Part shown: in pieces, positions 27,872 through 61,153 of the stretch
How positions within the stretch are numbered: position 1 is the stretch's first letter
Layout of the letters: every line of letters starts with the position of its first letter
Assembly (NCBI GenBank): GCA_026225275.1
Contig: JAMFSL010000154.1
Location: 1-64,000, forward strand
DNA length: 64,000 nt
Reading direction: 5' to 3'
Origin: Puia dinghuensis
GTDB taxonomy: Bacteria; Bacteroidota; Bacteroidia; Chitinophagales; Chitinophagaceae
Notes under the pieces: model-generated
Databases searched by the model: none
Seen by the model: only the letters and a program-made list of their open reading frames with translations
Told to the model about the DNA's origin: nothing
Position numbers and translations under genes: made by a program

Positions 27872-27904
27872 GCCAAATCGTCCCGTTTTTTTGACATTTC
27901 ATAC
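27872..27904. promoter_or_regulatory. Candidate operator, site A
   Basis: GCCAAATCGTC-ccgttttttt-GACATTTCATAC; 21-bp half-site spacing shared with sites B, C, D. Confidence 0.45.
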
Positions 27905-28090
27905 ATTTATCAGGCGTTCCATGAAGTACTTTATCGTCCAGAGCTCTTTAAGCAGCTGCCTTGAATTGACAAAATGTTCATTATATTGTCAGTATGTCCC
28001 GACACCGGTCAAAAAGGTTCATCGAATGATCCAACCCTCCAGCGTGATGTCTAAAACAGGCTCCAAAAAATGCGGAGAACCATTATAATG

Positions 28091-28122
28091 GACAATCCGA
28101 CAAGAAAAATGGACGTTTTGGC
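28091..28122. promoter_or_regulatory. Candidate operator, site B
   Basis: GACAATCCGAC-aagaaaaatg-GACGTTTTGGC, 51 bp upstream of the 28173 ORF. Confidence 0.5.
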
Positions 28123-28172
28123 AAAGACCCGCATGGCAGAAGCGTGATATTTGAACGGAGCAATGCCAGATT

Positions 28173-29795
28173 ATGAAAAAAGTCTCAAGGAAGCTTTTCG
28201 CCCTCTGTATTATCACACTAACGATCAGCTTAGCCGATGTCCAATCCCTTTTCGGCCAGCAGGCGCTGAAACTGTCCGGCTGGTTCACTGCTCAGGACGT
28301 AAATAATTTATTGTCACGCACTTCCGGCCTGGATAGCGCCGTGAGCTGGTGTAAAGTCCACGGGGTGACAAAAGTATACCTGGAAGCCTTTGGAAGAGGG
28401 TCTTATGCCGACAAAAAGACCCTCCTGACCGCAAAAAGCCGATTTCTTAATGAAGGACTGGCGGTCGGAAGCGGTCTCACGACCAGCGGCTTTGGCAAAG
28501 AAGGCGTCGGCGACGGCTGGAATGGCGCTTTGTGTTATACTGACAGGGAAACACAGGAACAACTTCAGCAGATCTTCGAATATGCTGCTGGCCTCTTCGA
28601 TGAGATCATTATAGACGACTGGTTCTTTACCCAATGCCAATGCGAAGAATGTATCCGGGCCAAAGGAGACGAGTCGTGGTCTAAATATTACAGTGACCTG
28701 CTGGTCAAAATAAGCCGGGAACGTATTATGCAGCCCGCCCACGCGGTCAATCCCCAAGTGAAGGTCATTATCAAATTCCCGCAATGGTATGACAACTTCC
28801 ATTTGCGCGGCTACGATGTAGGCCGTGAGTCTGTGATCTTTGATGGCATCTGGTGTGGAACGGAATCCCGTAATTTCGACTATAATGGTCGGGGATTCGA
28901 GATCGGCTACAACGCCTTTTTCAACATGCGCTGGCTGGGAAGCCTTGGGTCTGTCGGGGGCGGATGGTTTGATGCCGATGCTACCACGGTAAATTATTTC
29001 CTTGAACAGGCCCGTCATACCGTCCTGGGTGGGGGGAAGGAGATCATTCTTTGGTGTTATGGAAGAATGCGGGACAAAACCAATAACTATGGACCTTTCA
29101 GGGGCACACCCGCGGCCGACATGACGGCACTCAGCAACGAGCTCCCCGGGCTCGCAAAGCTGGCTGCCCTCATAGGTGACAAACCGCTGAAAGGCGTCCA
29201 CCTGCTCAAACCACCGAACAGTGAACCGTTCGAAGAAGAATGGGTCTGCAGCTTTCTGGGTAACCTTGGAATCCCCTTTGTCCCCGCTTCAACAATCGAC
29301 GAACAGGCGCTTGCCGCGGTCTTTCCGGTGCATGCGTTAAAAGATACCGGCTTCATCGATGCCATCCGGCGCATGCTAGCCAAAGGAACCCCGGTGGTCA
29401 TTACGGACGGCCTTGCCAAAAGACTGGCCGACTGTCCGGATATCCTCACCGATAAGAACCTCGCTGTGCTGAAAGTCAACGGCAGCCCTAAAAAACTCCT
29501 GAACCTATCCCCTGATGCAATAAAACCCATCAGAGACAAACTCCTGGCTCCCCTGGGTGTACAATTCGACGCACCGGATAAAGTGGAATTGTACTTATTC
29601 GGCGATGACTATTTTGTTGTGCAGAATTTAAACGATGAGGCTATCGATGTCACTCTTCACTTGTCGCACCGATCGCCCGCCCGCCAGGCTTTGATACTTC
29701 CCGAAACCGGGAGTAACGTGACGCTTTCACAAAACAACGGCACCATAAAAATGCATCTTTCCGCAAGAACGCTTGTCGCCGGGGAATATCATTAA
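28173..29795 (+). CDS. Secreted TIM-barrel-like protein, possible glycosidase of unassigned family
   Basis: 540 aa; signal peptide; FDEIIIDDWFFTQCQCEECIRAKG, IIKFPQWYDNFHLRGYD; first gene of a GH operon. Confidence 0.6.
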   Translation: MKKVSRKLFALCIITLTISLADVQSLFGQQALKLSGWFTAQDVNNLLSRTSGLDSAVSWCKVHGVTKVYLEAFGRGSYADKKTLLTAKSRFLNEGLAVGSGLTTSGFGKEGVGDGWNGALCYTDRETQEQLQQIFEYAAGLFDEIIIDDWFFTQCQCEECIRAKGDESWSKYYSDLLVKISRERIMQPAHAVNPQVKVIIKFPQWYDNFHLRGYDVGRESVIFDGIWCGTESRNFDYNGRGFEIGYNAFFNMRWLGSLGSVGGGWFDADATTVNYFLEQARHTVLGGGKEIILWCYGRMRDKTNNYGPFRGTPAADMTALSNELPGLAKLAALIGDKPLKGVHLLKPPNSEPFEEEWVCSFLGNLGIPFVPASTIDEQALAAVFPVHALKDTGFIDAIRRMLAKGTPVVITDGLAKRLADCPDILTDKNLAVLKVNGSPKKLLNLSPDAIKPIRDKLLAPLGVQFDAPDKVELYLFGDDYFVVQNLNDEAIDVTLHLSHRSPARQALILPETGSNVTLSQNNGTIKMHLSARTLVAGEYH

Positions 29796-29827
29796 CACCA
29801 GATTCAATCACTGTCCAAAAAATAAAG

Positions 29828-32800
29828 ATGAAACGACGATCTTATCTTCTTCTTGCTGCAGGTCTTTTACCATTCTTAACGATTGCCCAGCCAATCGAGC
29901 ATCGTGAAAAGTACGACATTGCCAGGGATAAAGTGTTATATGTCATCGGCTACGCTCACCTGGATACGGAATGGAACTGGGAATATCCGACCGTCATCAA
30001 CGATTATATCCGGAAGACGATGGTGGATAACTTCGCCCTTTTTGAAAAGTATCCCGACTATGTATTCAACTTTACCGGCTCCCGCCGGTACAATATGATG
30101 AAGGAATATTATCCCGATCTGTATAAAAAAGTAAAAGACTATATCGGGCAGGGGCGTTGGTATATTGCCGGTTCCTCGGTGGATGAGGCGGAGGTCAATA
30201 TCTCGTCCTCCGAATCGCTGCTGCGTCAGGTACTCTACGGAAATCTTTTCTTCAAACGTGAGTTTAACAAGCAAAGTTCCGATTATCTGCTGCCTGACTG
30301 TTTTGGCTTTGTGGCCACCACGCCGTCGATATGGGCGCATGCAGGGCTCCTGGGTTTCTCCACCCAGAAACTCACATGGGGTTCCGCCAATGGCATCCCA
30401 TTTAATGTAGGCGTGTGGGAAGGCCCGGATGGGAAAGGCCTGGTGGCTGCCCTGAATGCCACGAGCTACAATGGAGATATCGTGCCCAGACTGGACAGGG
30501 ATCGTGCCTGGACCGCCCGGATGACAGGCGATAGCAAAAAATACGGCCTTTTATTTGACTACCGGTACTATGGCACGGGCGACCAGGGCGGCGCGCCCAG
30601 GGAAAGGGACGTTCAACATGCCGTGGAAAGCCTTAAACACGGCGACAGCAGTAACTTCAAAGTTATCCTGACATCCTCCGATCAGCTTTTCAAAGACATC
30701 ACACCCGCGCTGCGGGCCAAGCTGCCTACCTATTCCGGCGACCTGCTGCTGGTCGAGCACAGCGCAGGCTCGCTGACGTCCCAGGCCTTTATGAAACGCG
30801 CCAACAGGAAAAATGAGTTACTGGCCAAATCGGCCGAGCAGCTCTCATCCGTCGCATCCTGGCTTGGCGGGGCATCCTATCCGCTGGATAAGCTCAATAA
30901 TTCCTGGGACCTCGTCCTGGGCAGCCAGTTCCACGATATCATGTCAGGAACGGCTACGCCAAAATCGTATGAATATGCCTGGAACGATGAATTTATCGCG
31001 ATGAACGGGTTCTCCGAAGCGGTAAAGCATTCTGCGAGCGCCATTACGCATCAGCTCAACACCCAGACCCAGGGTAAAGCCATTGTCGTATATAACCCCG
31101 TGGCCATCGACAGAGAAGACGTGGTTACTGCCGAGCTGATCTATGCGAAAAAACCTGACCACCTACAAGTGATCGATAAGGATGGCAACACCGTTCCTTC
31201 ACAGATCATTGCCGCCAAAGGGGATAAGGTCACCCTGCTCTTTTTGGCGAAAATCCCGTCGGCCGGGCTGTCTGTCTTCGACGTCCGGGAGACCAGTGAA
31301 AAGCCGGCTGCCTCGCCATTGATCGTAACGGACAATACGCTGGAGAACGATTTCTTCAAGATCACGATCAATGTCAACGGAGACATTGCCAGCATCTACG
31401 ACAAGAGCGCCCGAAAGGAAGTTCTTTCGCAACCCGCATCCCTCCAGTTCCAAAAAGAAGATCCTACGGACTGGCCGGCCTGGAATATGTATTGGAAGGA
31501 CCGGAAGAACCCACCCATCGACGTCATGAACAAAGACGTCACCATAAAGATCATCGAACAGGGTCCGGTTCGCGTCGCGATCGAGGTAACCAAAAAGGGG
31601 CAGAACTCAAGTATCACCCAGATCATAAGCCTGGCTGCCGGCGAACCCGGTAAAAGGATCGAAGTAAGCAATACCATCGACTGGCAGTCAAAAGGAGTAA
31701 GCCTTAAGGCCGCCTTCCCTACCACCGTCGAAAATGAACAGGCCACCTACGGCTTGAATACGGCTGCCGTGCAGCGATCCACCAACAACGAGGTCAAGTT
31801 CGAGGTCCCCGCCCGTCAGTGGTTCGACCTCACGGACAGGTCTGACAGCTATGGCGTTTCCATCCTGGAAGACGGCAAATATGGTTCGGACAAGCCGGAC
31901 AACAGCACCGTACGCCTTACGCTGATGTTTACTCCCCTGGCCCATCAGTATGTTTATCAGAACTCACAGGATTGGGGCATTCATCATTTTACCTACGCGA
32001 TTTACCCGCACGCGGGCGACTGGGTCCACGCCATGTCCCCCTGGCAGGGCAGCTTCGTCAATGCACCGCTGATTGCCTTCGAAACGGGCAAACACGATGG
32101 GCCATTGGGCAAAGAATTCTCGCTGGTCAGCCTCAATAAGGCCAATGTAGATATCATGGCTTTCAAAAAAGCCGAAGAGAGCGACTACTACATTGTTCGA
32201 TTCAACGAATTATACGGTAAGGATGCAGCAGCCATCGCTGCCCGGTTCCCTGGAAAGATTGTGGACGCCTACGAGGTAAACGGCCAGGAACAAAAGATCG
32301 GCGGGGCCAGCTTTGCCGATGGGAACCTTCACTTCGACATGACCCGGTTTTTGATCCGGAGTTTTGCCATCAAGCTGGATAAGGCCACGCAGCCCGGCTC
32401 GCTTCCCGCGCAAAAGCAACTCGATCTACCCTACAATGAAGACGCCATTAGTTCCGACGCCAACAGGAGCGACGGGAATATGTCCGATAGCCTGACCTTG
32501 CCGGCCGAACTCATTCCTGCGGAGATCGTAAGCGAGGATATCCAATTCCAGATGGGCTCCACAGCCGATGGCGCAAAGAATGTATTGACGGCAAAAGGCC
32601 AGACCATCGATCTGCCCGCTGGAAACTATAACAAATTGTATCTCCTGGCCGCGGCAACCCATGATACCACGGGCGAACTCTCCATCGGCAGGCAAAAGAT
32701 CCGGCTGGGTTTCCAGGATTGGACAGGCTATATCGGCCAGCACTACGGGCGTAAACTGACCGACCACGATACCAAAGTCACGGAAATTACCCCCGCATTT

Positions 32801-33052
32801 GTAAAGGGCGACGACATCGCCTGGTATGCGTCGCATTGCCATTCGCCAAAAGGTAACGAAGCCTATCGATATAGCTACCTTTACAAGTATGCCATCAATA
32901 TCCCCAAAGGGGCACGAAGCATCACCCTACCAAAGAATGAAGCCATTAAAATATTTGCCATGACGGTAGCCGACGACGGCGATGAAGACGTGACGCCGCT
33001 GCAACCTTTGTATGATCATTTCAAAGACGATGGACCAGTTAAATTGAGATAA
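29828..33052 (+). CDS. GH38 alpha-mannosidase
   Basis: 1074 aa; VIGYAHLDTEWNWEYP, RWYIAGSSVDEAEVNISSSESLLRQ, YLLPDCFGF, SQFHDIMSGT. Confidence 0.93.
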   Translation: MKRRSYLLLAAGLLPFLTIAQPIEHREKYDIARDKVLYVIGYAHLDTEWNWEYPTVINDYIRKTMVDNFALFEKYPDYVFNFTGSRRYNMMKEYYPDLYKKVKDYIGQGRWYIAGSSVDEAEVNISSSESLLRQVLYGNLFFKREFNKQSSDYLLPDCFGFVATTPSIWAHAGLLGFSTQKLTWGSANGIPFNVGVWEGPDGKGLVAALNATSYNGDIVPRLDRDRAWTARMTGDSKKYGLLFDYRYYGTGDQGGAPRERDVQHAVESLKHGDSSNFKVILTSSDQLFKDITPALRAKLPTYSGDLLLVEHSAGSLTSQAFMKRANRKNELLAKSAEQLSSVASWLGGASYPLDKLNNSWDLVLGSQFHDIMSGTATPKSYEYAWNDEFIAMNGFSEAVKHSASAITHQLNTQTQGKAIVVYNPVAIDREDVVTAELIYAKKPDHLQVIDKDGNTVPSQIIAAKGDKVTLLFLAKIPSAGLSVFDVRETSEKPAASPLIVTDNTLENDFFKITINVNGDIASIYDKSARKEVLSQPASLQFQKEDPTDWPAWNMYWKDRKNPPIDVMNKDVTIKIIEQGPVRVAIEVTKKGQNSSITQIISLAAGEPGKRIEVSNTIDWQSKGVSLKAAFPTTVENEQATYGLNTAAVQRSTNNEVKFEVPARQWFDLTDRSDSYGVSILEDGKYGSDKPDNSTVRLTLMFTPLAHQYVYQNSQDWGIHHFTYAIYPHAGDWVHAMSPWQGSFVNAPLIAFETGKHDGPLGKEFSLVSLNKANVDIMAFKKAEESDYYIVRFNELYGKDAAAIAARFPGKIVDAYEVNGQEQKIGGASFADGNLHFDMTRFLIRSFAIKLDKATQPGSLPAQKQLDLPYNEDAISSDANRSDGNMSDSLTLPAELIPAEIVSEDIQFQMGSTADGAKNVLTAKGQTIDLPAGNYNKLYLLAAATHDTTGELSIGRQKIRLGFQDWTGYIGQHYGRKLTDHDTKVTEITPAFVKGDDIAWYASHCHSPKGNEAYRYSYLYKYAINIPKGARSITLPKNEAIKIFAMTVADDGDEDVTPLQPLYDHFKDDGPVKLR

Positions 33053-33055
33053 AAA

Positions 33056-34066
33056 ATGAATACACCTATTATATGGCGCCTTGGTATGCTTTTGATGTGC
33101 ATTGCCCTCAATAAGGCAGCCGACGCACAGCAAACCGATGCTCCTGCAGTAACAGCATCATTGGCCCCGACGGTATTGCCGGGAAAAGGAGTGCAACAAT
33201 ACGACTTCTTTTACGCGGGCGAAAGTAAGGCACGTAATATGTACATCGTCCGCAATGGCAGGATCACCTGGTCGTACATCGATACCGCCGGTAAGGGAGA
33301 GATCAGCGATGCCGTATTGATGGCTAATGGAAATGTTTTGTTTGCCCACCAGTTTGGCGTTACGTTGATCAACCGGGACAAGCAAATACTTTGGCACTAC
33401 GACGCGCCGGATGGTTTTGAAACACACACCGCCCAGCCCATAGGCAGCGATCACGTGGTTTTTGTTCAAAACGGCAATCCCGCTCAGGTATTTGTGATGA
33501 ACATCCGGACTAATACGGTTGAAAAAAAATTTCCACTACCCTTTAAAAGCGGCACCCATGGCCAGATCAGACATGCCCGGTTAACCCCGCAGGGCACCTT
33601 GCTGGTGGCGCACATGGACCTCGGCAAAGTCTGCGAATACGATGTCGATGGCCATCAGCTTTCGTCGATTGACGTTGCCTCCGTGTGGTCAGCGGTGCCG
33701 TTAAAAAACGGGCATATCCTGGTGACCAGCAACCTGGGCTTCGTCAGCGAGATCACGAACGGAGGGGACTCTGTATGGAAATGCTCCGTGAAAGATATCG
33801 CCGGTTATTCGCTAAAAAATCCGCAGCTGGCCGTCAGGCTTGCGAATGGAAATACGCTTGTCAATAACTGGTTCAATCAATGGTCGGCCACGGTTGACCC
33901 CGCCAATCCACCTGTACAAGCAGTGGAGATAACACCCGGAAAAAAAATAGTATGGGCTTTGCGCTCCTGGTCTGTACCTTTAAATCTGGGACCTTCTACC
34001 ACCATCCAGATCCTTGACGATCCCGATGCTCTAACAAATGATGTTCACTTTGGTGATATAAAATAG
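33056..34066 (+). CDS. Secreted beta-propeller (PQQ/WD-like) protein
   Basis: 336 aa; repeated NGxILVT/NGNTLVNN blades; signal peptide. Confidence 0.7.
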   Translation: MNTPIIWRLGMLLMCIALNKAADAQQTDAPAVTASLAPTVLPGKGVQQYDFFYAGESKARNMYIVRNGRITWSYIDTAGKGEISDAVLMANGNVLFAHQFGVTLINRDKQILWHYDAPDGFETHTAQPIGSDHVVFVQNGNPAQVFVMNIRTNTVEKKFPLPFKSGTHGQIRHARLTPQGTLLVAHMDLGKVCEYDVDGHQLSSIDVASVWSAVPLKNGHILVTSNLGFVSEITNGGDSVWKCSVKDIAGYSLKNPQLAVRLANGNTLVNNWFNQWSATVDPANPPVQAVEITPGKKIVWALRSWSVPLNLGPSTTIQILDDPDALTNDVHFGDIK

Positions 34067-34099
34067 CAGGGCAGATGCCCTATATTCTTAAACGTTAAA

Positions 34100-36862
34100 A
34101 TGAAAAATGCTTTTCTCCAGTTACTGCTCACTTTGATTAGCCCCTTCACGTTTTCGCAGGGAACGATTATTAAATATCTGTCCGGAACGGACAAGGACCA
34201 TACAGTCCAATGGGATTTTTACTGTACGGGAGGGAGCAACAGTGGAAAATGGACAACGATTGCCGTCCCGTCCAACTGGGAATTGCAAGGTTTCGGCACC
34301 TATAACTACGGGCATGATAAAACAAAAGGCAACGAACAGGGCCTCTATAAACATGAGTTCTTTGCGGAGCGATGGACAGGCAAAAAAGTGTTTATCGTGT
34401 TTGAAGGGTCGATGACGGATACAAAAGTCATGATCAACGGCCAACTGGCAGGCCCCATACATCAGGGTGGCTTCTACCAGTTTAAATATGATATAACCGG
34501 CTTAATAAAAACAAATGCCAAAAATGTACTCGAGGTTACGGTAGACAAAACATCCGCAAATGCCTCCGTTAACGACGCAGAACGGAGAAACAGTGATTTT
34601 TGGGTGTTTGGCGGCATTTTCCGGCCTGTATACCTGGAAATCGTTCCCCAAACTTTTATTGATCGGATCGCTATTGATGCCACTGCCGGCGGCTTATTTA
34701 AGCTTGACGTGTACCTTCAGCATGTAGTTGGCGGCGAAGCGGTTGAAGCACAGCTGCAGAAACGGGATGGCACTAATATCGGAACGCCTTTTTCAACAGC
34801 GGCGGATACCACATCGGAAAAAGTGCATTTGGAAAGCTATTTGGAAAGACCACTGCTGTGGAGCAGTGAGTTTCCTAATTTGTACCAGGTCGTTATTACG
34901 GTAAAAAGCAAATCAGGCCCGGTTATCCATCGTGTTTGGCAAAGGTTCGGTTTTCGAACTATTGAATTGCGGGCTAATGACGGATTTTACGTCAATGGGA
35001 TAAAAGTAGTACTGAAAGGCTGTTGCCGGCATAGCTTTTGGCCTGAATCCGGCAGAACCCTAAGCTATGGCATAAATTTGTCAGATGTGAATTTAATGAA
35101 GCAAATGAACATGAACGCCGTAAGGATGTCACATTATCCGCCGGATCGTGACTTTTTAGACATTTGCGATTCGCTCGGATTATATGTGCTTGACGAATTG
35201 ACGGGCTGGCAGGCAAAATATGATACAGTAGTGGGACGTAAATTAGTAAAAGAGCTGGTGATCAGGGATGTAAATCATCCATCTATTGTTTTTTGGGATA
35301 ACGGCAATGAAGGCGGATGGAATACCGGATTAGATAATGATTATTCCCTGTATGACCCTCAGAAACGTACCGTATTGCATCCATGGGCAGATTTTAACGG
35401 AGCGGATAACCACCATTATCCTGACTACAAGTACCTATTGAAAACTGTAGCAACCGGAAAAGATGTTTTTTTCCCGACGGAATTTTTGCATGGTTTATAC
35501 GATGGCGGCGCCGGGGCAGGGCTGGACGATTTTTGGGACTGCATGACGAAGTATCCGCACAACGCCGGCGGTTTTATCTGGGCCTTCCTGGATGAAGCCG
35601 TTCTTCGTAAAGATAAGAACGGCCTTTATGATACGGACGGTAATCACGCGCCTGACGGCATTGTCGGCCCACACCGGGAAAAAGAGGCCAGTTTCTATAC
35701 CATTAAAGAAATTTGGTCACCGGTGTATATTAACCTTCAATCGGTTGATAAAAGCTTCAACGGGGAAATACCTGTTGAAAACAGGTATGCTTTTACCAAC
35801 CTTAGCCAGTGCTTATTCAGATGGAAGCTGGTTAAATTCCCGACTGCCCGCGAAAAGGCGACAAAGGAAACAATAAAAGCGGAAGGCACCGTTGTCAACA
35901 CTAATATTAAATCATCCGGCAAAGGCATACTTAAGCTCGGCCTGCCTGCGTCCTGGGCAAAAAATGACGCCCTTTATTTAACCGCGTTCGGGCCGGACCA
36001 TAAAGAAATATATACCTGGACCTGGCCTATCCCATCCACGAAAGATTTACCAAAAGGGTTTCCGGTATTTGCTTCCAAATCGACCATACAAGCTATGGAG
36101 ACTTCAAATACTGTAGCGGTAAAATGCGATGGGATAACTTATTATTTTAGTAAGGGTACGGGATATATCCTAAAGGTCGTCAGGCCGGGTTGCACGATAT
36201 CCCTGTCAGGCGGACCGGTTTTGGCAGGAGTAAAAACAGAACTAAACCAATTCGTTTATGAACGGCTAAACGAGCAATACATCATTGAAGCGAATTACCG
36301 GGGTGAAGACTCGCTGCACGTTAAATGGACTTTCACGCCGGGACATCCTGTTAAACTCGAGTATACCTATTCGCAGAGCGGAGATGTGGATTTTTCCGGG
36401 ATCACTTTTAATTATCCCGAAGAAAAGATGGAGGGCATGAAATGGCTGGGTCGTGGTCCGTACCGGGTGTGGAAAAACAGGCTGAAAGGAGAACGTTTTG
36501 GTGTTTGGCATAAGGCTTACAACAATACTGTTACAGGACAGACCTGGGATTATCCCGAATTCAAAGGTTATCACGGAGCGGTCAAATGGGTGGTGATCGA
36601 AAATAATCAGTCCCCCTTTACTGTATATTGCGGCAATAACGATGTGTATCTGCAAATGCTGCATCCGGCGAGGGAAGCGGACGCCTTGAAAAACAATAAT
36701 GTAGAACCGGCATTTCCCGAAGGTAGCATCGGTTTCCTGCATGCTATTGCACCGATAGGTACAAAATTTCATTCTGCCGATGCAATGGGCCCGCAAGGTC
36801 AAAAGACCCCAGCTGCCGGTCAACCGATAAGCGGCATACTCTGGTTTGATTTTCTTAAATGA
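34100..36862 (+). CDS. GH2-family glycosidase
   Basis: 920 aa; VPSNWELQGFGTYNYG, VRMSHYPPDRDFLDICDSLGLYVLDEL, SIVFWDNGNEGGWN, FFPTEFLHG. Confidence 0.9.
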   Translation: MKNAFLQLLLTLISPFTFSQGTIIKYLSGTDKDHTVQWDFYCTGGSNSGKWTTIAVPSNWELQGFGTYNYGHDKTKGNEQGLYKHEFFAERWTGKKVFIVFEGSMTDTKVMINGQLAGPIHQGGFYQFKYDITGLIKTNAKNVLEVTVDKTSANASVNDAERRNSDFWVFGGIFRPVYLEIVPQTFIDRIAIDATAGGLFKLDVYLQHVVGGEAVEAQLQKRDGTNIGTPFSTAADTTSEKVHLESYLERPLLWSSEFPNLYQVVITVKSKSGPVIHRVWQRFGFRTIELRANDGFYVNGIKVVLKGCCRHSFWPESGRTLSYGINLSDVNLMKQMNMNAVRMSHYPPDRDFLDICDSLGLYVLDELTGWQAKYDTVVGRKLVKELVIRDVNHPSIVFWDNGNEGGWNTGLDNDYSLYDPQKRTVLHPWADFNGADNHHYPDYKYLLKTVATGKDVFFPTEFLHGLYDGGAGAGLDDFWDCMTKYPHNAGGFIWAFLDEAVLRKDKNGLYDTDGNHAPDGIVGPHREKEASFYTIKEIWSPVYINLQSVDKSFNGEIPVENRYAFTNLSQCLFRWKLVKFPTAREKATKETIKAEGTVVNTNIKSSGKGILKLGLPASWAKNDALYLTAFGPDHKEIYTWTWPIPSTKDLPKGFPVFASKSTIQAMETSNTVAVKCDGITYYFSKGTGYILKVVRPGCTISLSGGPVLAGVKTELNQFVYERLNEQYIIEANYRGEDSLHVKWTFTPGHPVKLEYTYSQSGDVDFSGITFNYPEEKMEGMKWLGRGPYRVWKNRLKGERFGVWHKAYNNTVTGQTWDYPEFKGYHGAVKWVVIENNQSPFTVYCGNNDVYLQMLHPAREADALKNNNVEPAFPEGSIGFLHAIAPIGTKFHSADAMGPQGQKTPAAGQPISGILWFDFLK

Positions 36863-38034: not shown

Positions 38035-38042
38035 ATCTGTGT

Positions 38043-38903: not shown

Positions 38904-38911
38904 AAATCTTT

Positions 38912-45988: not shown

Positions 45989-45998
45989 GGCCTTTAAT

Positions 45999-50162: not shown

Positions 50163-50412
50163 GGTCAGGCATTATCGTAGTACTAAATGTAAACAATTAT
50201 TTATTCAACTCTCTCCCTACCCTGCCGGGGCAACCGTCATTTGGTCAATCCAACCAAAAATATAAACGATCAAAACAAAAATGCCTGACGGGCCAGCCCA
50301 GTCCGGCGCACCAAGTCCGGATTTAGGATGATCCGACCAAAATCCCGGACCTCTGCATTGTCTTAATGTGTTAGTCGCGGCTACCTTAGCTGCGGACGAT
50401 TGACATCTTAAT

Positions 50413-52587
50413 ATGAGAAAGACATTTGCCGTATTGATTGTTTTATTTACCCTGGCTGGTTGCAGGCGTAATGTTAGAGAAGGTACTGACTGGCCGGCTT
50501 ATGGCGGCAACAAGGCGGGTAATCGTTATTCGACGCTGGCACAGATCAACCTGCGTAATGTCAGTCAACTGAAAGTAGCCTGGATGTACGATGCCAGGGA
50601 TGGCGGCCAGGCCGGCAAGCAGCCGCGGGAAATCGAATGTCAGCCTATCGTCGTACACGGCATCTTATACGGGACGACGCCTGAGTTGAAGCTGTTTGCG
50701 CTCGATGCGGCTACGGGGCGGCAATTGTGGCTATTCAATCCGTCGGCAAAGCAACAGGGGTACAATAGCATGAACAGGGGGGTCGATTATTGGGAAGATG
50801 GCGATGACCGGCGCATCCTGTACCCTGCTGGCCCCAACCTCTATGCTGTCGACGCCATGACCGGACAGCCGGTGACCGGCTTTGGCAATAATGGTAAAGT
50901 GGACCTGCATACAGGCCTGGAAAATGACCGGTATGGTATCAAGGATTTGGCCATTACGGCCACCTCTCCGGGCGTCATTTATAAGGATATCCTGGTAATG
51001 GGCAGTACCGTCAGTGAAATGGGGGATGCGTTGCCGGGCCACATCCGTGCCTTCGACGTGCGGACGGGTAAATTGCTCTGGATATTTCATACGATCCCTC
51101 AGCCCGGCGATGCGGGATACGATACATGGCCCAGGGATGCCTATAAGAAAATAGGTGCTGCGAACTGCTGGGCCGGCCTGGTGCTGGATGACAAGCGGGG
51201 CGTGGTCTATTTCGGAACTGGCGCGCCTGCCGTCGACTTCTATGGCGGGACCCGTACGGGGATGAACCTGTTCGCCGACTGTATTATTGCCCTTGATGTG
51301 ACGACGGGGCATCTCAAGTGGTATTACCAGTTGACCCATCACGATCTATGGGACAATGACATCCCCTGTCCGCCGAATTTGGTCACGGTGATGCACAACG
51401 GAAAAAAGACGGATGCCGTCGTACAGACAACGAAGGACGGGCTGATCTATGTGCTGGACCGGGATAGCGGCGCCGCCCTCTTTCCGGTGGAAGAACGGCC
51501 GGTGCCGACGACGTCGCTGCCGGGTGAGCATCCGTGGCCGACGCAACGTTTCCCTCTGAAGCCGGCTCCTTTAACCCGACAATTTATCAGCAATGCGGAC
51601 CTGCCGGATTCTGTCCTGTTCCCTGACAGCTATCGCTGGGCCCGGCAACAATACAGCGAACTGCAACACGGGCAAAAATTTATGCCGCCCAGTCTGCAGG
51701 GTACCTTGTATATCGGTATCAGCGGGGGTGCGGAATGGGGGGGTAGCGCTGTCGATACTGGTGGCGTGCTTTACCAGAATGTGAGTGAGATGCCGTGGAA
51801 GGTCAGGATGGTGGACCTGGCAACGAGCCTCAGGGAGACCACCTCGCGCGGCAACGCGCTGTATGTGACCAATTGTTCGGTCTGCCACGGCGTAGACCGA
51901 AAAGGAGGAGGCTTTCCGAACCTGTTGCATGTAGATGAGCGGCTCAGCGCCGCCGATATCAGCGGCATCCTGCAGAATGGCAGGGGGCGTATGCCTCCGT
52001 TCCAGAGCCTGCCGGAATGGGACCGTAACAGCATTATCCAGTTCTTATTGAATAAAGAAGGGAAGGCAGAAAGGAATGGGATGGAAGGAAAGGATGAACA
52101 CAGTGATAAAGGTATGCTGGATGCCGGGAACACAGGCTTTCCTTATGTCCCGCCTTACATGCGGGGCAGCGGCGGCAAATTCCGCGACTCCAGCGGATAT
52201 CCTGGCCTCCGGCCGCCGTGGGGGACGCTAAATGCCGTCGACCTGAATTCCGGCGATTACGTATGGCGGGCTCCGTTAGGTGAATATCCGGCGCTGAAGA
52301 AGAAGGGCATTCCGGCCACCGGTACTGAAAATTCCGGCGGACCCCTGGCTACCGCCGGCGGGTTGGTGTTTATCGCCGGTACTGAAGATGAGAAACTGCG
52401 GGCTTTCGATAGTCATACAGGCAAGGTGGTGTGGGAATATCAGCTGCCGTACGGTGCATTTGCCACACCGATCACCTATTCGGTCGATGGCAGGCAATAT
52501 ATCGCGATTGCCGCCGGTGGCGTCCGTAATAATCATAAACCCGGCGGCTATTATATCGCCTTTGCGCTGCCTAAAACAGATCTATGA
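50413..52587 (+). CDS. PQQ-dependent dehydrogenase with inserted cytochrome c domain
   Basis: 724 aa; WPAYGGNKAGNRYSTLAQI, GALFPVEERPVP, heme motif CSVCH, NSGGPLATAGGLVFIAGT. Confidence 0.92.
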   Translation: MRKTFAVLIVLFTLAGCRRNVREGTDWPAYGGNKAGNRYSTLAQINLRNVSQLKVAWMYDARDGGQAGKQPREIECQPIVVHGILYGTTPELKLFALDAATGRQLWLFNPSAKQQGYNSMNRGVDYWEDGDDRRILYPAGPNLYAVDAMTGQPVTGFGNNGKVDLHTGLENDRYGIKDLAITATSPGVIYKDILVMGSTVSEMGDALPGHIRAFDVRTGKLLWIFHTIPQPGDAGYDTWPRDAYKKIGAANCWAGLVLDDKRGVVYFGTGAPAVDFYGGTRTGMNLFADCIIALDVTTGHLKWYYQLTHHDLWDNDIPCPPNLVTVMHNGKKTDAVVQTTKDGLIYVLDRDSGAALFPVEERPVPTTSLPGEHPWPTQRFPLKPAPLTRQFISNADLPDSVLFPDSYRWARQQYSELQHGQKFMPPSLQGTLYIGISGGAEWGGSAVDTGGVLYQNVSEMPWKVRMVDLATSLRETTSRGNALYVTNCSVCHGVDRKGGGFPNLLHVDERLSAADISGILQNGRGRMPPFQSLPEWDRNSIIQFLLNKEGKAERNGMEGKDEHSDKGMLDAGNTGFPYVPPYMRGSGGKFRDSSGYPGLRPPWGTLNAVDLNSGDYVWRAPLGEYPALKKKGIPATGTENSGGPLATAGGLVFIAGTEDEKLRAFDSHTGKVVWEYQLPYGAFATPITYSVDGRQYIAIAAGGVRNNHKPGGYYIAFALPKTDL

Positions 52588-54578
52588 AAAAGCTGCTTAT
52601 GAAGATAGCCCCTGGTCTTGCCGCATCAATAAATAAAACTATTATGACAACCAAAACGATGCTTGGATCATCCATTCTTCTGACCGCCCTGCTGGCCGTC
52701 AAATGCAGTTCAGGGCCGGGCGGTAGCAGGCAGGAATGGGCCGATCTCAACACGAAGGTGATCGCGGAGTATCATGTAAAGGGAAGGACGCGTACCGATA
52801 TACCCGATACGAAAGTACCATCCAACCTGACGGGCGGCAAAGTGACGAATATGTCCACGCTGCCCGACATCCAGCTGGCCGGGGGCGTAATAGCCAAGGC
52901 GTACTGGGGAAAAGGAGCGCTGATGAGTTTTATTACCATGGCTCCGAATGCGGCGATTCCGGAGAGCAAGATTTCCGGTGAGCGTTTTCTCTTTGTGCTG
53001 TCCGGAGAAGTGAAGGAATGGGTGGATGGCAGCCAGGCTACCTTGCGGGGAGTGCCGCGCGATACGATCGACGGGATTCACGGGAAGGCCCCCGTCCGGG
53101 AATTCCTCTATCTGCAGGACGACGCCCGTACGGCGGTTGCTGCCGGTCCCGGGGGAGCGAAGATCCTGGAAGTATTCAGCCCCGTGCCTGTGGAATATTT
53201 GCACAAGGCCGGCGTCAAGGACATTCCCGATCCCATTTCCATCGATCAGTTCCCGATTCCACCGAGCGTGGAGCCGAATAAAGTATACAATCTTTATGAT
53301 TTGCAGTACGCTCAACTGGTGCCGGGCAGCAATTCCCGAATCGTTTCGGGGAAAGGGGTACAGATGAGTTTTCTGCGGATGAATCCCAACACGAAATTCG
53401 CACGCCATATTCATCCTGAAGAACAGGTGATGTACACCTGGAGGGGAGCGATAGACGAGATACTGCTGGACAAGACCATCAAAATGACGCCGGGCGATAT
53501 CGTGGATCTCCCTTCCGACTTCGTACATGGCGGCAATCTCAGCGCGGAGGGATGTGATGTCATGGACGTATTCTTTCCGCCGCGTACCGACTACAACCAG
53601 TTTCGCGTCAGTCGTGACAGCGGGTATGATGCCATCATTCCAAAGGATGCGACAATAAAGACAGTTGTGGACGGCGGGGCCTCGAAACCGGGCCTTACTT
53701 TCACCGAAGGGCCGGTGTGGCTTGACGGCAAGCTTTATTTTTCCAATATGTATTTCGACAAGGACTTCAAGGGAAATCCCCGCAAGAGTTCACTGGTGGT
53801 AATGAACCCGGATGGAAGGTACCGCAATATCATTCAGGGCCAGATGCAGACCAACGGCCTGCTGGCTGCACCGGACGGTCATCTGATCGTCTGCGATATG
53901 TTCGGCCACAGGCTGCTAAAGATGGATACAACGGGTACTATCCTCAAGGTGCTGGCGGACCAATACCAGGGCAAACCGCTGGACGGTCCCAACGATCTTT
54001 GCATGGATGCGAAAGGCGGCATTTACTTTTCCGACCCGCAGTTCACCGGCGATGCGGTGAAGAATCAGCCGGGCAGGACAGTTTATTACCTTGCGGCTGA
54101 CGGCAAACTGACGCGGTTACTGCCGCCCAATGACTTTGCGATGCCCAATTGTCTCGCGCTGAGCCCTGATGGAAAAACATTGTACATCGATAATACCTAT
54201 GACGACGAGAAATTCTGGAATGTCAATAGCGATAAGGACAACTACGTGTGGGCCTACGACGTGCAGCCCGATGGCACGATTAGGAACGGCCGCAAATTCG
54301 CTGAGCTGTACCTGATGGAGCAGGTGCTGGACCGTCACGGTAAATCATCAGGCGCCGACGGGCTGAGGGTGGATGAGCGGGGCAATGTGTATGTGGCTAC
54401 CTGGGACGGCCTGCAGATCTTCAATCCGCGGGGTGAGTTTGTGGGCATCATCAACTTTCCGACTTATCCCGTCAATCTTGCTTTTGGCGGATCTGACGGC
54501 AAGACCATTTATGTCACCAGCTATAACAAGATCTACAGTATACACAGCAATGTAAAAGGATTATCCCGTGTTCAATAA
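52584..54578 (+). CDS. Fusion of two cupin-like domains and SMP-30/gluconolactonase
   Basis: 664 aa; cupin region (MNPNTKFARHIHPEEQVMYTWRG) then LTFTEGPVWLDGKLYFSNM, GKPLDGPNDLCMDAKGGIYFSDP; ATG at 52644 preferred (lipoprotein signal). Confidence 0.88.
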   Translation: MKKLLMKIAPGLAASINKTIMTTKTMLGSSILLTALLAVKCSSGPGGSRQEWADLNTKVIAEYHVKGRTRTDIPDTKVPSNLTGGKVTNMSTLPDIQLAGGVIAKAYWGKGALMSFITMAPNAAIPESKISGERFLFVLSGEVKEWVDGSQATLRGVPRDTIDGIHGKAPVREFLYLQDDARTAVAAGPGGAKILEVFSPVPVEYLHKAGVKDIPDPISIDQFPIPPSVEPNKVYNLYDLQYAQLVPGSNSRIVSGKGVQMSFLRMNPNTKFARHIHPEEQVMYTWRGAIDEILLDKTIKMTPGDIVDLPSDFVHGGNLSAEGCDVMDVFFPPRTDYNQFRVSRDSGYDAIIPKDATIKTVVDGGASKPGLTFTEGPVWLDGKLYFSNMYFDKDFKGNPRKSSLVVMNPDGRYRNIIQGQMQTNGLLAAPDGHLIVCDMFGHRLLKMDTTGTILKVLADQYQGKPLDGPNDLCMDAKGGIYFSDPQFTGDAVKNQPGRTVYYLAADGKLTRLLPPNDFAMPNCLALSPDGKTLYIDNTYDDEKFWNVNSDKDNYVWAYDVQPDGTIRNGRKFAELYLMEQVLDRHGKSSGADGLRVDERGNVYVATWDGLQIFNPRGEFVGIINFPTYPVNLAFGGSDGKTIYVTSYNKIYSIHSNVKGLSRVQ

Positions 54579-57500
54579 AACGATGCTTATGCCAAACTAT
54601 CTATTACCGATGCGCAGTGAGCCCTTGTTGCGCGGGCGATCCTTGCTCAATGGAAGGACCAGTCTGCGCAAGGCTGTGTGCTGCCTGGCCGCCGTTCTTT
54701 GCATGGCTTTCGTCGCCAGGGCGCAGCAGGGACGGACCGAGCAGGATCTGTCAGGAAGCGGCTGGTCGCTCTGGCTCGACCGCGGTGCCGTATGGTACAA
54801 TGACAGCGTCTATCTGCCGCCTGTGGACGTGGCCAAACTGCCGGTCAACCCGCCGACGGAGGGCTGGCAGCGGCTCCATAGCAGTCCGGCTCTGGCCGTC
54901 AGTGTGCCCGGCACCGTGGAGCAGCATTACTGGGGGGCTATTGGCGGCGCAATACAGGATACCGGCGGCAATTATATCGGCGTTTCCTGGTGGAGCCGGA
55001 CTTTCAGGGCGGACCCCGCGTTGAAGGGTAAACATATTACACTGCAATTCCAGTCCGTCAATCTTCGCGCTGAAGTTTTCGTCAACGAGCAGCTGGTCGG
55101 GTATGATGTTGTCGGTAACACACCCTTCGAGGTCGATGCTACCAATGCCATCGACTTTGGCGGCGACAACCGACTGGATATCCGTATCACGGATCCCGTA
55201 GGCAATTTCGAATGGAACGATAACATCCTCATGCGATGGGGCCGCAATCTCGTTCCTGCTGTCCATGGCTTCGGCGGCATTACCGGCAATATTGTGCTGC
55301 GGGCAACCGATGCCCTCCATGTGTCGGATATATACGTGCAGAATCAGCCTGATCCGCATATAGTGAAGATCTTCGTTACGCTGGACAATCGTTCCGCCGC
55401 GCCCCGGGGCGGCCGGCTGAAACTAGCCATACATGAAAAGGGGTCAGCGGCTGTGGTCTGGACGAAGGAGGTGGCGGTTACCGCCTTTTCCGGGGCAAGT
55501 ACTGTCATGGCCGAAGCTAATGTACCTGCCGCACGGTTGTGGGAACTGGCAGTCAACAAGGAGGTTAAACAGGCGGCGGTGTATGAGGCATTTGTTAACT
55601 ATACCGGCGATGACGGCAGCCATGATGTAGCGCAACAACGCTTTGGCTTCCGCTGGTTCGACGTCGAGGACAGGCAGAAAGATCATGATCCCCGGTTCTA
55701 TCTCAACGGGAAGAGGGTGTTCATCATTGCCGCCATGACCCGGGGTTTCTGGCCGACCAACGGCATCTTTCCGACGCCCGCCATGGCGCAACGGGATTTA
55801 AAGACGGTGGAAGATCTCGGTATGAACACGATGCTGATGCATCGGGCTATAGGTCAGCCAATGGTCATGGAATATGCCGATTCTTCGGGATTGTTCACCT
55901 ATGAAGAGCCTGGCGGCTACAGGATCATGCCAAATCCCAATGACTCCATCGACGGACCCGACGACCAGGCCCGCCGCTGGCGGCGCGAAAAACTGCGCCG
56001 TATGATCCTACGTGACCGCTCGCTGCCTTCGTTGATTACCTATAACCTGGAGAATGAAGCGACGATACCGCCAAATGAATACGATATCGCAGACATGAAG
56101 ATGGTGCATGAGCTGGACCCTTCCCGCATCCTCACCTATAACAGCGGCAGCGATATAGATCTGGACTATCATAAGGTGATACCCCACAATCCTTTCAAGC
56201 TTCATATGTACCCATATAACCAACAGCTGCTATATGATGGCTGGTGGGATCAGCATCACTGGTTCGGCTATTCGGGTTATGTCGACGAGAATTACCGCAA
56301 TCCGCGGTTTTACGTGCGGGGCGTAATCAACGGCCCGCGGGCTCCGATGTTGGAAGATTCACTCTATCGCCTCGACAAACGGGAGATCATTTTCTTTGGT
56401 GAGGAAGGGGCTTTTGGTACTATCGTCCGGCTCCAGAAGATCAAGGAGGAGCTCGATACTATCGGGTCTGCCGGATTCCGGGAGAAAGAGCATCTCGATT
56501 GGTACGCTTATTACGACAAATTCCTGGATGAGACTGGTTTTCGGGCATCCTATCCCGATGTCGATAGCCTGACCAGGAGCCTCGGGCGCAACATGCATTA
56601 TTTCCAGGCCCGGAATATTGAGAATGTCCGGATGGGCAATATTGCCGACGCGTATAATATGAATGGTTGGGGATCTGCGAAAACCCGGACCGATGTAGTG
56701 GATATGTACCGAAACCCGACTGCGGATGCCTCTATCATCCGCTATTACACCCGGCCGCTGTATGTAGCCGTGAAGCTCCGCAACAAGGTCGTCCCTTCCG
56801 GGACCACGCCTATCGCGGATTTTTATATCATCAATGAGCTGGATCTGCATGGGCAGTATACGCTTTCGGTCACCCTGACAGGTCCCGGCGCACCTGCTTT
56901 CCACCGGCAGATACCCGTCACCGTAGCGGGTGGGGAAACTTTCGGTCAGCTGCTGACGGAAGGGGTGCAGCTGCCGGCGCTGACTGCTGCGGGTTACTAT
57001 ACGGTTCATGCGGAATTGCTGACCGCATCGCCAGCGGCAAAGGGTGGGTCTGCGGCGGCAATGGGCGCGTCGCCTGCCGCAAAGGGCGCCGACGATATTT
57101 ACGTCGTGGAAGAGAATGCGCGTCATGGAATTTCCAGTCATAGTCTCGTTTTTGAAAATGATCCTATTGTTCACGACTACCTAAAGAATGCAAAAGGCGT
57201 AGACGCGGGTGTCTATAGCCCGGCAGCCGGACGGACGGATGTCATCGTCATTGGGAATGTGCCGGCGACGGCGCTGGATGAGGCGACGCTGAATGACCTG
57301 CTGAATCGTGCTGCGGGCGGGACGCGTATCATCGTTCTCGAACATGCCGACCTTTTCGCCAGGGCCATCAACGATCTTTTGAGGGACAGGCCGCCTCTCT
57401 ATAATGGCGGCGGCATTATCCATTGGGCAGGTGCCGGCAGGTTGTTCGTCGGGAGAAGCCCGCTGCTGGAAGGGCTGCCGCAGGGGCAGGGCATGAGTTG

Positions 57501-57759
57501 GGAATACCAGTGTTTTTATAAGACCACAGATAACGGTGGCAACGGGCTGGTCTCGGGTCTGGCGCTCAATCATGCGCGATCGGAATGGGTAGTGGCTTTG
57601 GGGAACCAGGGCAAAAAGGATATTTTAGGCGCCCTGGTGCGACTGCCGGTTGGACTAGGGAGTGTAACCCTGTCCACCCTTGGTATCCTGCCCAACCTCT
57701 CCACGCACGAGCTCAGCGCAGTGGTAGCAAAACGTCTATTTCTAAATATGTTCGAATAA
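54568..57759 (+). CDS. GH2-like glycosidase
   Basis: 1063 aa; GH2 sugar-binding domain, LGMNTMLMHRAIGQPMVMEYADSSGLFTYEEPGG, LITYNLENEA, IIFFGEEGAFG. Confidence 0.82.
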   Translation: MFNKTMLMPNYLLPMRSEPLLRGRSLLNGRTSLRKAVCCLAAVLCMAFVARAQQGRTEQDLSGSGWSLWLDRGAVWYNDSVYLPPVDVAKLPVNPPTEGWQRLHSSPALAVSVPGTVEQHYWGAIGGAIQDTGGNYIGVSWWSRTFRADPALKGKHITLQFQSVNLRAEVFVNEQLVGYDVVGNTPFEVDATNAIDFGGDNRLDIRITDPVGNFEWNDNILMRWGRNLVPAVHGFGGITGNIVLRATDALHVSDIYVQNQPDPHIVKIFVTLDNRSAAPRGGRLKLAIHEKGSAAVVWTKEVAVTAFSGASTVMAEANVPAARLWELAVNKEVKQAAVYEAFVNYTGDDGSHDVAQQRFGFRWFDVEDRQKDHDPRFYLNGKRVFIIAAMTRGFWPTNGIFPTPAMAQRDLKTVEDLGMNTMLMHRAIGQPMVMEYADSSGLFTYEEPGGYRIMPNPNDSIDGPDDQARRWRREKLRRMILRDRSLPSLITYNLENEATIPPNEYDIADMKMVHELDPSRILTYNSGSDIDLDYHKVIPHNPFKLHMYPYNQQLLYDGWWDQHHWFGYSGYVDENYRNPRFYVRGVINGPRAPMLEDSLYRLDKREIIFFGEEGAFGTIVRLQKIKEELDTIGSAGFREKEHLDWYAYYDKFLDETGFRASYPDVDSLTRSLGRNMHYFQARNIENVRMGNIADAYNMNGWGSAKTRTDVVDMYRNPTADASIIRYYTRPLYVAVKLRNKVVPSGTTPIADFYIINELDLHGQYTLSVTLTGPGAPAFHRQIPVTVAGGETFGQLLTEGVQLPALTAAGYYTVHAELLTASPAAKGGSAAAMGASPAAKGADDIYVVEENARHGISSHSLVFENDPIVHDYLKNAKGVDAGVYSPAAGRTDVIVIGNVPATALDEATLNDLLNRAAGGTRIIVLEHADLFARAINDLLRDRPPLYNGGGIIHWAGAGRLFVGRSPLLEGLPQGQGMSWEYQCFYKTTDNGGNGLVSGLALNHARSEWVVALGNQGKKDILGALVRLPVGLGSVTLSTLGILPNLSTHELSAVVAKRLFLNMFE

Positions 57760-57768
57760 GCAACTACT

Positions 57769-59262
57769 ATGAAAAAATTGATTTTCGCTGCCTTGCTTCC
57801 GGCGCTGTCGGGCATTACCAGTCAGGCGCAGAATCCGCCGTCCTTCGCCAACCAGTCTCCCCGGCCTCCGGCGCAGCCAGGACAGGAAAGACATTTTCTC
57901 CGGGCGCCCGACGTGTTGCCCGGCACCTTACCAGAAATGCGAACAGCCGCTTACTGGACAGGCAGGATGGAGCATCCCGACGAAGTGGTGATGGGAATGG
58001 AAAAGATCCGGAAGATGAACATGGACTTCATGGAAAGGATGCGGCATCCCGAGCGGATCGACAGTCTTGCCCGGCAACTTATCCTGGCCAAGATAGCGGC
58101 TTATCCCGGACTCTTCTTTTCCGAACCTGATCTTTTCGGGCAAACCGCTGCCCGGCGTGCCGATATTATCCGGTCGACGATCGGGGCGGAGATCAAATAC
58201 ATGCGTCATACCGAATACGGGAACATCCTGGGTATCCAGTATTCCGCCTATGAGCTGGACCGCCTGGAGGCGGAGATGTCGGCGGAAACGGCAGGCGATT
58301 TGCCGCAGGTGCAGCAGGGCATGGCCGTAGAAGCAGCCGACCTGCGCATTGTGCCAATGATCAGTCCCGAGTATGTAGGTCTCGGCGATAAGAACCGTGC
58401 CAGGTGGGATGTATGGAGCCTGGACATCGTCGATATCGGTACACCCGTTCAGATCCTGCATGTATCGAAATCCGGAGGCTATTTGTTCGTGCTGACGTCT
58501 AACGGGTTTGGCTGGCTGCCGGCTGAAAAGATAGCAATTGCCGGGCGGGATGCTGTGGATCGTTATGTGACCGATCAGCATTTTGCGGTCTGCACGGGAG
58601 ATAAGGTACCCTTCTTTGGCGATCCGGACGGGAAGTTCGCATCGGGGTGGCTTCGTATGGGTGATCGCATTCCGCTGGCAGGCGGGGCGGGTCAAAATGC
58701 GGCCGGGACGGGTCCCTACAAGATCATGGTGCCGGTCCGGCAGGCCGATGGCTCTTTGTCCGTGCAGGCCGCATGGCTGAGGGCAGGTGCGGATGTGCAG
58801 GCAGGATATCTTCCCTATACGCGGAGCAACGTCGTTCTGCAATCGCTTAAGCTGCTGGACAACATCTATGATTGGACAGGCGCCTGGATGGGCCGTAACC
58901 ATGCCACCGTGTTACGGGATATTTTCAGCTGTTTTGGCTTCCGTCTTCCGTCCTGCGGGGAACTGCTGTCCGTATACACCGATCACCCGAAATGGATGTC
59001 CGCCAGCACGCCGCGGGAGCGGCAATACAGGGAAGTATTGGCGAATGAGCCTTTCCTGACCTTACAGATCTGCAGCAGCGGTCACAGCCAGTTGTTCCTG
59101 GGGGGCTATGACGGCGTTCCTATCGTCTACGATACTCATGGATACAACTATACGGATACCAGCAGCGGCAAATCGTTGGATATCCGACGCGAGTGTATAG
59201 AGACTATTGCTTTGCCCGATTATTTCCTGAAACAGGACGTGGTGTTTGTCGAGTTGAAATAG
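57769..59262 (+). CDS. SH3-domain NlpC/P60-like protein, catalytic Cys apparently lost
   Basis: 497 aa; signal peptide; YDWTGAWMGRNHATVLRDIFSCFGFRLPS ... EPFLTLQICSSGHSQLFLGGYDGVPIVYDTHGYN. Confidence 0.7.
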   Translation: MKKLIFAALLPALSGITSQAQNPPSFANQSPRPPAQPGQERHFLRAPDVLPGTLPEMRTAAYWTGRMEHPDEVVMGMEKIRKMNMDFMERMRHPERIDSLARQLILAKIAAYPGLFFSEPDLFGQTAARRADIIRSTIGAEIKYMRHTEYGNILGIQYSAYELDRLEAEMSAETAGDLPQVQQGMAVEAADLRIVPMISPEYVGLGDKNRARWDVWSLDIVDIGTPVQILHVSKSGGYLFVLTSNGFGWLPAEKIAIAGRDAVDRYVTDQHFAVCTGDKVPFFGDPDGKFASGWLRMGDRIPLAGGAGQNAAGTGPYKIMVPVRQADGSLSVQAAWLRAGADVQAGYLPYTRSNVVLQSLKLLDNIYDWTGAWMGRNHATVLRDIFSCFGFRLPSCGELLSVYTDHPKWMSASTPRERQYREVLANEPFLTLQICSSGHSQLFLGGYDGVPIVYDTHGYNYTDTSSGKSLDIRRECIETIALPDYFLKQDVVFVELK

Positions 59263-59315
59263 AACGAATAAACCTTCTTAACTATAACATTATTAATTTG
59301 CAAATCAATTACAAT

Positions 59316-61040
59316 ATGATAAAAATAAAAAAGTTTTTAACCGTAGTATTTTCCTTAGCATTCTGTTTAAAAGTTGCTGGTCAGGAGCCCGGCATCAACC
59401 GTGGAAAACAAAATAATGGACCAGGATCCCAGCCAGTCCCGCTGGACAATGTTGAGTGTCTGTTTGATTCTGCGTTCCAGGTAAAAACGGCTGTGATACT
59501 ATCACAGGCTGCGGCTCAACGAAATAGTGTTCCATTAAGCCTGGTACGTATTGCCAACAATAAGCTGGCCGTCATGGCTCAGGACAAAAACGGAAAACTC
59601 CAGCCTTTTTACATGCGAGGTATTGAAACCGGTTTTTGGGACACTAGAACTGATACCACTAATTATGACACAGTATTTGAAGCCTACCGCAAAATGAACG
59701 CTGATGCCGCCATGTTTATGATACACTGGAGCGACATAGAGCCTGCAGATGGCAAATTCAATTTTTCGTTTACTGACAGCATAGTGGCAACAGCGAAAAA
59801 ATATGGGGTAAAAATTGTATGGGTGCTTTTTATGCATGAACATAGTCATGACATGAAGTGTTTGCCCCCACCCGAAAATTTATGGATGTATAACCTTGAT
59901 ACCAGGGACAGCGTCAATTATGCCATACAATGGATAAAGGACAAAAATGGAGCTATCATAAAAGATATTCCGACACAAAGGCAGAAATTCAGCGAAATAG
60001 TGCCCTGTTATGCAAACCCGATCGTTTATAATCGGATCATCGGGATGCTTGGCCAGCTTGGCGCTCATTATAAAAATTCGGAGTCAGTTATCGGGGTGCA
60101 GATTGGAAATGAGGAAGGCATTAGTTATATGGGATCAGATGCGGATCTCAATCCTTATACAATTTCCTCATTTGAAAGATGGAAAAAGCTGACCGGTGAC
60201 ACCTCGTGGACCAGGTTCAAACTGGCCATAGTGAAGTTATGGTGGTCGAGATTTACAACCGCCTATCATTTGCAGGAACCCTATAAGCTGACTATGTTTA
60301 ATCCCATTGGCGGCGGCCCGGAGAAGGGCGACAGCGGCATTATTGCACGCAGCGGCACAAATGTCACTACTTTCCGCGACAGTAAAATAGATGTTATCGC
60401 TACCATGTTTTATGGTACCGATGCTACCCGGATATGGAAAAATCTTGACGCGATCTACAAAGTTGATAATACCTACAGTTATCCCACGCAGCTGCCTGTT
60501 TTAATGAGCACGGAAATCGGCATCGGAAGGCTTAACACCCTGCCCTATACCCAGGAATTTATGATTAATTTCCTCGAGCGGGGTTCGCAGGGGTTTGCGG
60601 TTTTTGAATATGGCCATATGGCAAGCCTGGAAGGGATGATCAATGCAAACGGAGATGTTTTTCAAAAGTTTATGGCGATGGTGAAAGCTAACGAAGACAT
60701 TATTTGGCCTGGCCTGCCGGGCTCGGGAGATAATATTTCACTATCTGCGAAGACTGGCGGAGCCAAAATTAGCTGCCTTCACAAAGGCAATGAAGGAACG
60801 CTTGGAATCCTGCATTTTCCGGAGGCTATTGATGAAAAGATTTTGGAAACCCAGGTTGAGGTGCCCATAGAAATAACTGTTCAGAAAACAGGCGTGTACG
60901 TTACTGAAATATACAAAGACGGTATTTTGACAGCATCGCGGAAAGACAATATGACAGCCACGAAAGGCAGTCTAGTCACCGTCCATCTGTCAAATAAAGC
61001 AACTGCTTTTATCAAAGTCACAAAGCTCGGTATAAAATAA
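59316..61040 (+). CDS. Clan GH-A glycosidase (GH35/GH42-like)
   Basis: MIKIKKFLTVVFSLAFCLKVAGQ start; MIHWSDIEPADGKFNF, VIGVQIGNEEG, PVLMSTEIGIG. Confidence 0.75.
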   Translation: MIKIKKFLTVVFSLAFCLKVAGQEPGINRGKQNNGPGSQPVPLDNVECLFDSAFQVKTAVILSQAAAQRNSVPLSLVRIANNKLAVMAQDKNGKLQPFYMRGIETGFWDTRTDTTNYDTVFEAYRKMNADAAMFMIHWSDIEPADGKFNFSFTDSIVATAKKYGVKIVWVLFMHEHSHDMKCLPPPENLWMYNLDTRDSVNYAIQWIKDKNGAIIKDIPTQRQKFSEIVPCYANPIVYNRIIGMLGQLGAHYKNSESVIGVQIGNEEGISYMGSDADLNPYTISSFERWKKLTGDTSWTRFKLAIVKLWWSRFTTAYHLQEPYKLTMFNPIGGGPEKGDSGIIARSGTNVTTFRDSKIDVIATMFYGTDATRIWKNLDAIYKVDNTYSYPTQLPVLMSTEIGIGRLNTLPYTQEFMINFLERGSQGFAVFEYGHMASLEGMINANGDVFQKFMAMVKANEDIIWPGLPGSGDNISLSAKTGGAKISCLHKGNEGTLGILHFPEAIDEKILETQVEVPIEITVQKTGVYVTEIYKDGILTASRKDNMTATKGSLVTVHLSNKATAFIKVTKLGIK

Positions 61041-61080
61041 ACACAAAAACAGGGGGATTTAGGGCTAAGGCGCATATTAG

Positions 61081-61153
61081 GTCAATCGGATCAATTTTTT
61101 GGACAATCGAATTAACAATTCGACAAGTCGCATTTTACATTTGACCCACAAAA
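61081..61153. promoter_or_regulatory. Candidate operator/promoter region of second SusC (site D array)
   Basis: Half-site-like elements at 61081 (GTCAATCGGAT), 61102 (GACAATCGAAT), 61122 (GACAAGTCGCA), 61143 (GACCC...); TACATTTG at 61136-61143 fits the Bacteroidota -7 box TAnnTTTG. Confidence 0.5.

Follow-up and report, generated by a model that had tools for sequence, protein, structure and literature searches.

Putative HTCS operators with half-sites repeated directly at 21 bp in a SusC/SusD gene cluster of Puia dinghuensis

The window, that is, the whole stretch of DNA analysed, comprises 64,000 nt of Puia dinghuensis (GCA_026225275.1, contig JAMFSL010000154.1, positions 1–64,000, forward strand). 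It carries six non-coding sites built on a 21-bp direct repeat, with a half-site of approximately WCRATYNGnMCAA in the sites of the window and of its relatives. We read them, with a probability of about 0.87, as operators of activators of the hybrid two-component type (HTCS), with direct half-sites 21 bp apart, abutting promoters and divided between HTCS-1 and HTCS-2 as proposed below. The HTCS/AraC-type identity is well supported by the 21-bp direct repeats, the intergenic position of the sites beside HTCS orthologues and the variants that appear to track HTCS lineage; HTCS binding, phosphorylation and activation at these sites are what the sequence leads one to expect.

19439–19476, minus strand: operator F (new), precedes the GH2 gene
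27868–27905, minus strand: operator A, half-sites ATGAAATGTCAA / ACGATTTGGCAA, directed at SusC-1
28089–28126, plus strand: operator B, directed at the GH38/GH2/GH76 operon starting at 28173
39935–39972, strand undefined: operator C, near-symmetric, 5′ of HTCS-1
50242–50279, plus strand: operator E, HTCS-2 type AACGATCAAAACAA, between HTCS-2 and the PQQ operon
61079–61116, plus strand: operator D′, GGTCAATCGGATC-N8-GGACAATCGAATT, upstream of SusC-2

The repeat is apparent in an alignment-free lag test based on 12-bp self-matches. In the combined run, which covered four intergenic regions of the window and eight regions from relatives, lag 21 is the single strong peak, with a z-sum of 28.9 (99% null 12.6). 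The peak is present in the four window regions alone (10.9; 99% null 7.3) and in ten regions of relatives alone (20.9; 99% null 11.1); lag 21 is also the maximum for regions 5′ of 25 HTCSs that are more distant, with a value of 16.6 that has no null of its own. The initial annotation had listed sites A, B, C, D and E as pairs of 11-bp halves separated by 10 bp, with starts 21 bp apart, and their letters are present at the coordinates it gave. Its 21-bp period holds; the repeat is direct, not inverted. Direct matches outnumber inverted ones at A, D′ (9/11 against 2/11), E and F, and the reverse is seen only at B (7 inverted, 6 direct) and C (10 inverted, 7 direct). The palindromic reading was accordingly dropped except for C, which is indeed the 10/11 inverted repeat first described. 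Re-orienting the sites raises their mean pairwise identity from 0.52 to 0.56, a gain too small to count.

A profile trained on the relatives' sites only (R1; 38 positions, about 0.55 bits per position) was used to scan the window, and a window-trained profile to scan the relatives. The relatives' sites were first located with the window-trained profile, which introduces some circularity into both tests. With this proviso, out of about 128,000 window positions the first six ranks go, in order, to E, B, F, C, D′ and A, and in seven of the nine relative loci the top match of the window-trained profile falls in the intergenic DNA next to the HTCS, the match there ranking second in L024 and fourth in L034. 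The window has six matches of at least 13.5 bits, whereas 60 shuffles average 0.23 (maximum 2); with the spacer shifted by −8 to +10, the six matches in the window fall to between 0 and 4. All six best matches are non-coding, though non-coding DNA makes up 3.1% of positions 9938–64000, an enrichment measured within the window, with F counting as non-coding only if GH2 starts at 19373. A chance likeness in AT-rich intergenic DNA has in its favour that the half-sites are short and degenerate and the information content of R1 low, and is nevertheless extremely improbable in view of the shuffle, spacer-shift and lag tests, the promoter spacing given below and the ranking of the sites genome-wide. 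Both the lag test and the −7 spacing are free of any profile; together with the discovery of F and of a site on contig C134, they give the more independent support.

The primary-sigma promoters of Bacteroidota carry TAnnTTTG as their −7 element (PMC7366714). A TTG lies 25–27 nt past the second half-site in 13 of the 16 operators tabulated, one of which (L034) was picked by eye, and is part of TTTG in ten; the fixed offset has p = 1.3e-12 for TTG and p = 2.4e-11 for TTTG. TTTG occurs at the same offset in A, B, F and D′, the TA part of the element being kept in D′ only. At 25–27 nt, a −7 element was not found for C, E or the first G004 site.

27841–27848, minus strand: −7 element GTTCTTTG of the SusC-1 promoter, 25 nt past operator A
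28146–28153, plus strand: −7 element GATATTTG of B
19419–19412, minus strand: −7 element GTCCTTTG of F
61136–61143, plus strand: −7 element TACATTTG of D′
61122–61153, plus strand: earlier site D, core promoter region containing −7 TACATTTG

Because the distance from operator to −7 is fixed, the operator borders on the −33 region in the manner of class II activation, a geometry familiar from the AraC family. According to the proposed mechanism, a phosphorylated HTCS dimer would set its two AraC-type DNA-binding domains on the two directly repeated half-sites, which, being 21 bp or two helical turns apart, would present the same face of the DNA. The promoter-proximal half-site would end about 25 bp before the −7 TTTG and adjoin the −33 region, so that the bound protein could contact RNA polymerase.

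Four of the five sites first listed lie in operator regions; D is a core promoter. Its second half begins at the last base of the −7 TACATTTG, and D was rejected as an operator; the operator proper is D′, about 40 bp upstream, which had been overlooked. D thus illustrates how the motif might be nothing other than a core promoter (−33 TTG, −7 TAnnTTTG) mistaken for an operator. For the set as a whole this is very unlikely: in A, B, F and D′ a gap of 25 nt parts the −7 from the second half-site, which keeps operator and promoter separate, the repeat occurs at C and E in the absence of a −7, and a promoter alone would not give repetition at lag 21. For A the place was correct and the strand was not, since the minus-strand reading toward SusC-1 matches B (83% over 24 nt). 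F, absent from the initial list, was found by the model; a caveat is that it lies shortly before a re-annotated start codon.

The genes concerned are as follows:

16200–19373, minus strand: GH2 (LacZ-like), target of F; ORF listed from 19448, start likely at 19373
22866–24593, minus strand: SusD-1
24580–27717, minus strand: SusC-1, target of A; orthologues divergent to HTCS-1 orthologues
28173–39823, plus strand: operon behind B, with an unassigned gene, GH38, Mal s 1-like, GH2, GH76 and two NIF3-like genes
40081–44298, plus strand: HTCS-1, with propeller sensor, Y_Y_Y, HisKA, HATPase, receiver and HTH_18
45999–50162, minus strand: HTCS-2, domain architecture as in HTCS-1
50413–61040, plus strand: PQQ dehydrogenase operon behind E
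61168–64000, plus strand: SusC-2, target of D′; continues beyond the window

Each of the two regulators is a single chain that combines propeller sensor, kinase, receiver and AraC-type HTH, the arrangement that defines an HTCS. HTCS-1 groups with its orthologues in L024 (Pedobacter sp. UBA5917), G014 and G022, to which it is 58%, 52% and 49% identical, respectively; HTCS-2 belongs to a sister group with G004. The DNA-binding domains of HTCS-1 and HTCS-2 are 46% identical to each other, that of HTCS-1 is 77% identical to its counterpart in L024 and that of HTCS-2 is 89% identical to its counterpart in G004. A partial GH2 (end of the TIM barrel, DUF4982 and a C5 domain; the N-terminus looks truncated) lies between the two HTCS genes at 44347–45846. 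At 19488–22808, between SusD-1 and GH2 in the SusC-1 operon, there is an FG-GAP/ASPIC-UnbV repeat protein, which is not at the equivalent position in G014 (L027). The end of the GH38 operon, 37878–39823, consists of two adjacent NIF3/DUF34-like genes.

Site variants seem to split as the HTCS lineages do, E going with G004 and A, B, F and C with L024, as judged from few loci. The G004 site AACGATCAGAACAA matches AACGATCAAAACAA of E, and AACGATCARAACAA is common to both, whereas the sites of A, B, C, F and L024 mostly end in GNCAA. The operators most likely form two cognate sets. HTCS-1 would act at A on the SusC-1/SusD-1 operon, at F on GH2 and at B on the GH38 operon, C lying next to the regulator's own gene, and HTCS-2 at E and probably at D′ (SusC-2). 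The last assignment is weak, because SusC-2 shares only about 30% identity with the SusCs next to relatives of HTCS-2; SusC-1 is about 60% identical to those divergent from HTCS-1 orthologues (G014 and G022). Downstream of E, a candidate second HTCS-2 operator, E2 (ATGATCCGACCAA, 50328–50390), has TACCTTA at 50382, about 25 nt past a weak second half. A second G004 site akin to E2 (L038, minus strand from 566) has TATCTTG.

The clusters had first been viewed as linked in a single regulon by HTCS/AraC-type operators. The operator type is well supported; one regulon is doubtful in the presence of two HTCSs with only 46% identity between their DNA-binding domains, E following the HTCS-2 group and A, B, C and F the HTCS-1 group. 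It is true that the two types of half-site are alike and that an HTCS-2-type profile scores B and C highly too, as would be expected if HTCS-1 alone, or both HTCSs interchangeably, served all six sites. This we consider unlikely, given the divergence of the DNA-binding domains, the distinct half-site endings and the behaviour of R3, an HTCS-1-type profile whose training sites were A, B, F and two from L024, and which recovers C and not E or D′.

The whole genome (6.6 Mb) was searched with the profiles. E is the sole match of R1 at E ≤ 10; C is the best match of R3 outside its training set (E = 0.0017), and the HTCS-1-type regulon thus looks local; A is matched by R2 and R3 as a member of the training set. 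An unexpected match, C134:601–665, is flanked by an HTCS and by a SusC, a paralogue with 85% identity to SusC-2; in the promoter of this paralogue the match occupies the position of D′. This segment (G000:C134:1–2165, L091) holds a second, divergent HTCS–SusC pair of the genome, with the operator 55 bp 5′ of the SusC start codon. Other matches (C308, C224, C230, C253 and C200) overlap or lie near unrelated genes at E values of 0.05–2 and were set aside as chance. The genome scan proposed with the initial annotation recovers E, C and C134, the remaining extra matches being attributed to chance, and the comparison of orthologous promoters that it also proposed shows the site kept at orthologues of SusC-1 (L027 and L028) and GH2 (L024). 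Site L024b lies upstream of the GH2 orthologue in L024, which is 70% identical to GH2 of the window. In the same Pedobacter genome, an operator with a −7 lies about 570 nt 5′ of a SusC-like ORF (L024:1536–1604), leaving a long leader.

Operator C was originally taken as evidence that HTCS-1 regulates itself. C does adjoin the gene, 108 nt 5′ of it, and this position is kept in three orthologous loci; it scores in both orientations, and its near-perfect symmetry might permit reading both ways. The best orientation is minus, pointing away from HTCS-1, a −7 element at the usual distance was not found in either orientation, including that toward HTCS-1, and the equivalent site of orthologous loci is directed at the divergent SusC or at GH2. 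C may be a relic of a promoter that served a SusC or GH2 and has since moved away, and an autoregulatory role is conceivable at somewhat under even odds.

A lineage rule may be put forward tentatively, as one that could well prove wrong. The rule would be rigid, with the operator a 21-bp direct repeat about 25 bp ahead of the −7 TTTG; GH or PQQ operons would have been inserted between the HTCS and its ancestral SusC; the target would keep a working operator and its −7, and an operator lacking the −7 (C, E) would stay by the HTCS and may regulate it. The HTCS-to-operon assignments are testable for this alpha-mannan-type degradation cluster, and the fixed operator-to-promoter distance offers a means of finding HTCS targets and active promoters. 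The HTCS operator code predicted in gut Bacteroides is extended to another lineage of Bacteroidota.

Ravcheev et al. (2013; PMC3878776) predicted the motifs of Bacteroides HTCSs to be direct repeats with a mean of 21 bp between sites, and HTCS dimers to bind two helical turns apart. The B. thetaiotaomicron operators predicted in that work are, like those of the window, direct repeats of about 21 bp 5′ of susC/susD and GH operons; related HTCSs have similar motifs there, and the set includes the alpha-mannan HTCSs BT2628, BT3302 and BT3786. The window likewise shows a direct repeat of about 21 bp, placement 5′ of susC/susD or GH operons in the neighbourhood of an HTCS gene and conservation in orthologues. 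It represents a different lineage, was compared in architecture, and differs in having a measured, constant −7 distance and two HTCS types in one cluster. The response-regulator parts of BT4124 and BT4663 share the receiver and AraC-type domain and bind susC promoters in EMSA (PMC11253607); binding by the window HTCSs is predicted from sequence. The S/CHIP-DK motif has been linked to phosphorylation-gated DNA binding (PMC11253607), and its SHIP part is present in both window HTCSs. Among solved structures, the DNA-binding region of HTCS-1 comes closest to PDB 12aw_A (E = 9.6e-17), an HTCS chain of a different protein, matched at the level of sequence only. The 21-bp direct-repeat form of HTCS operator is already known, as a prediction, from gut Bacteroides, and the window sites are further examples of it, with a corrected list of sites and a promoter-spacing rule that is of use.
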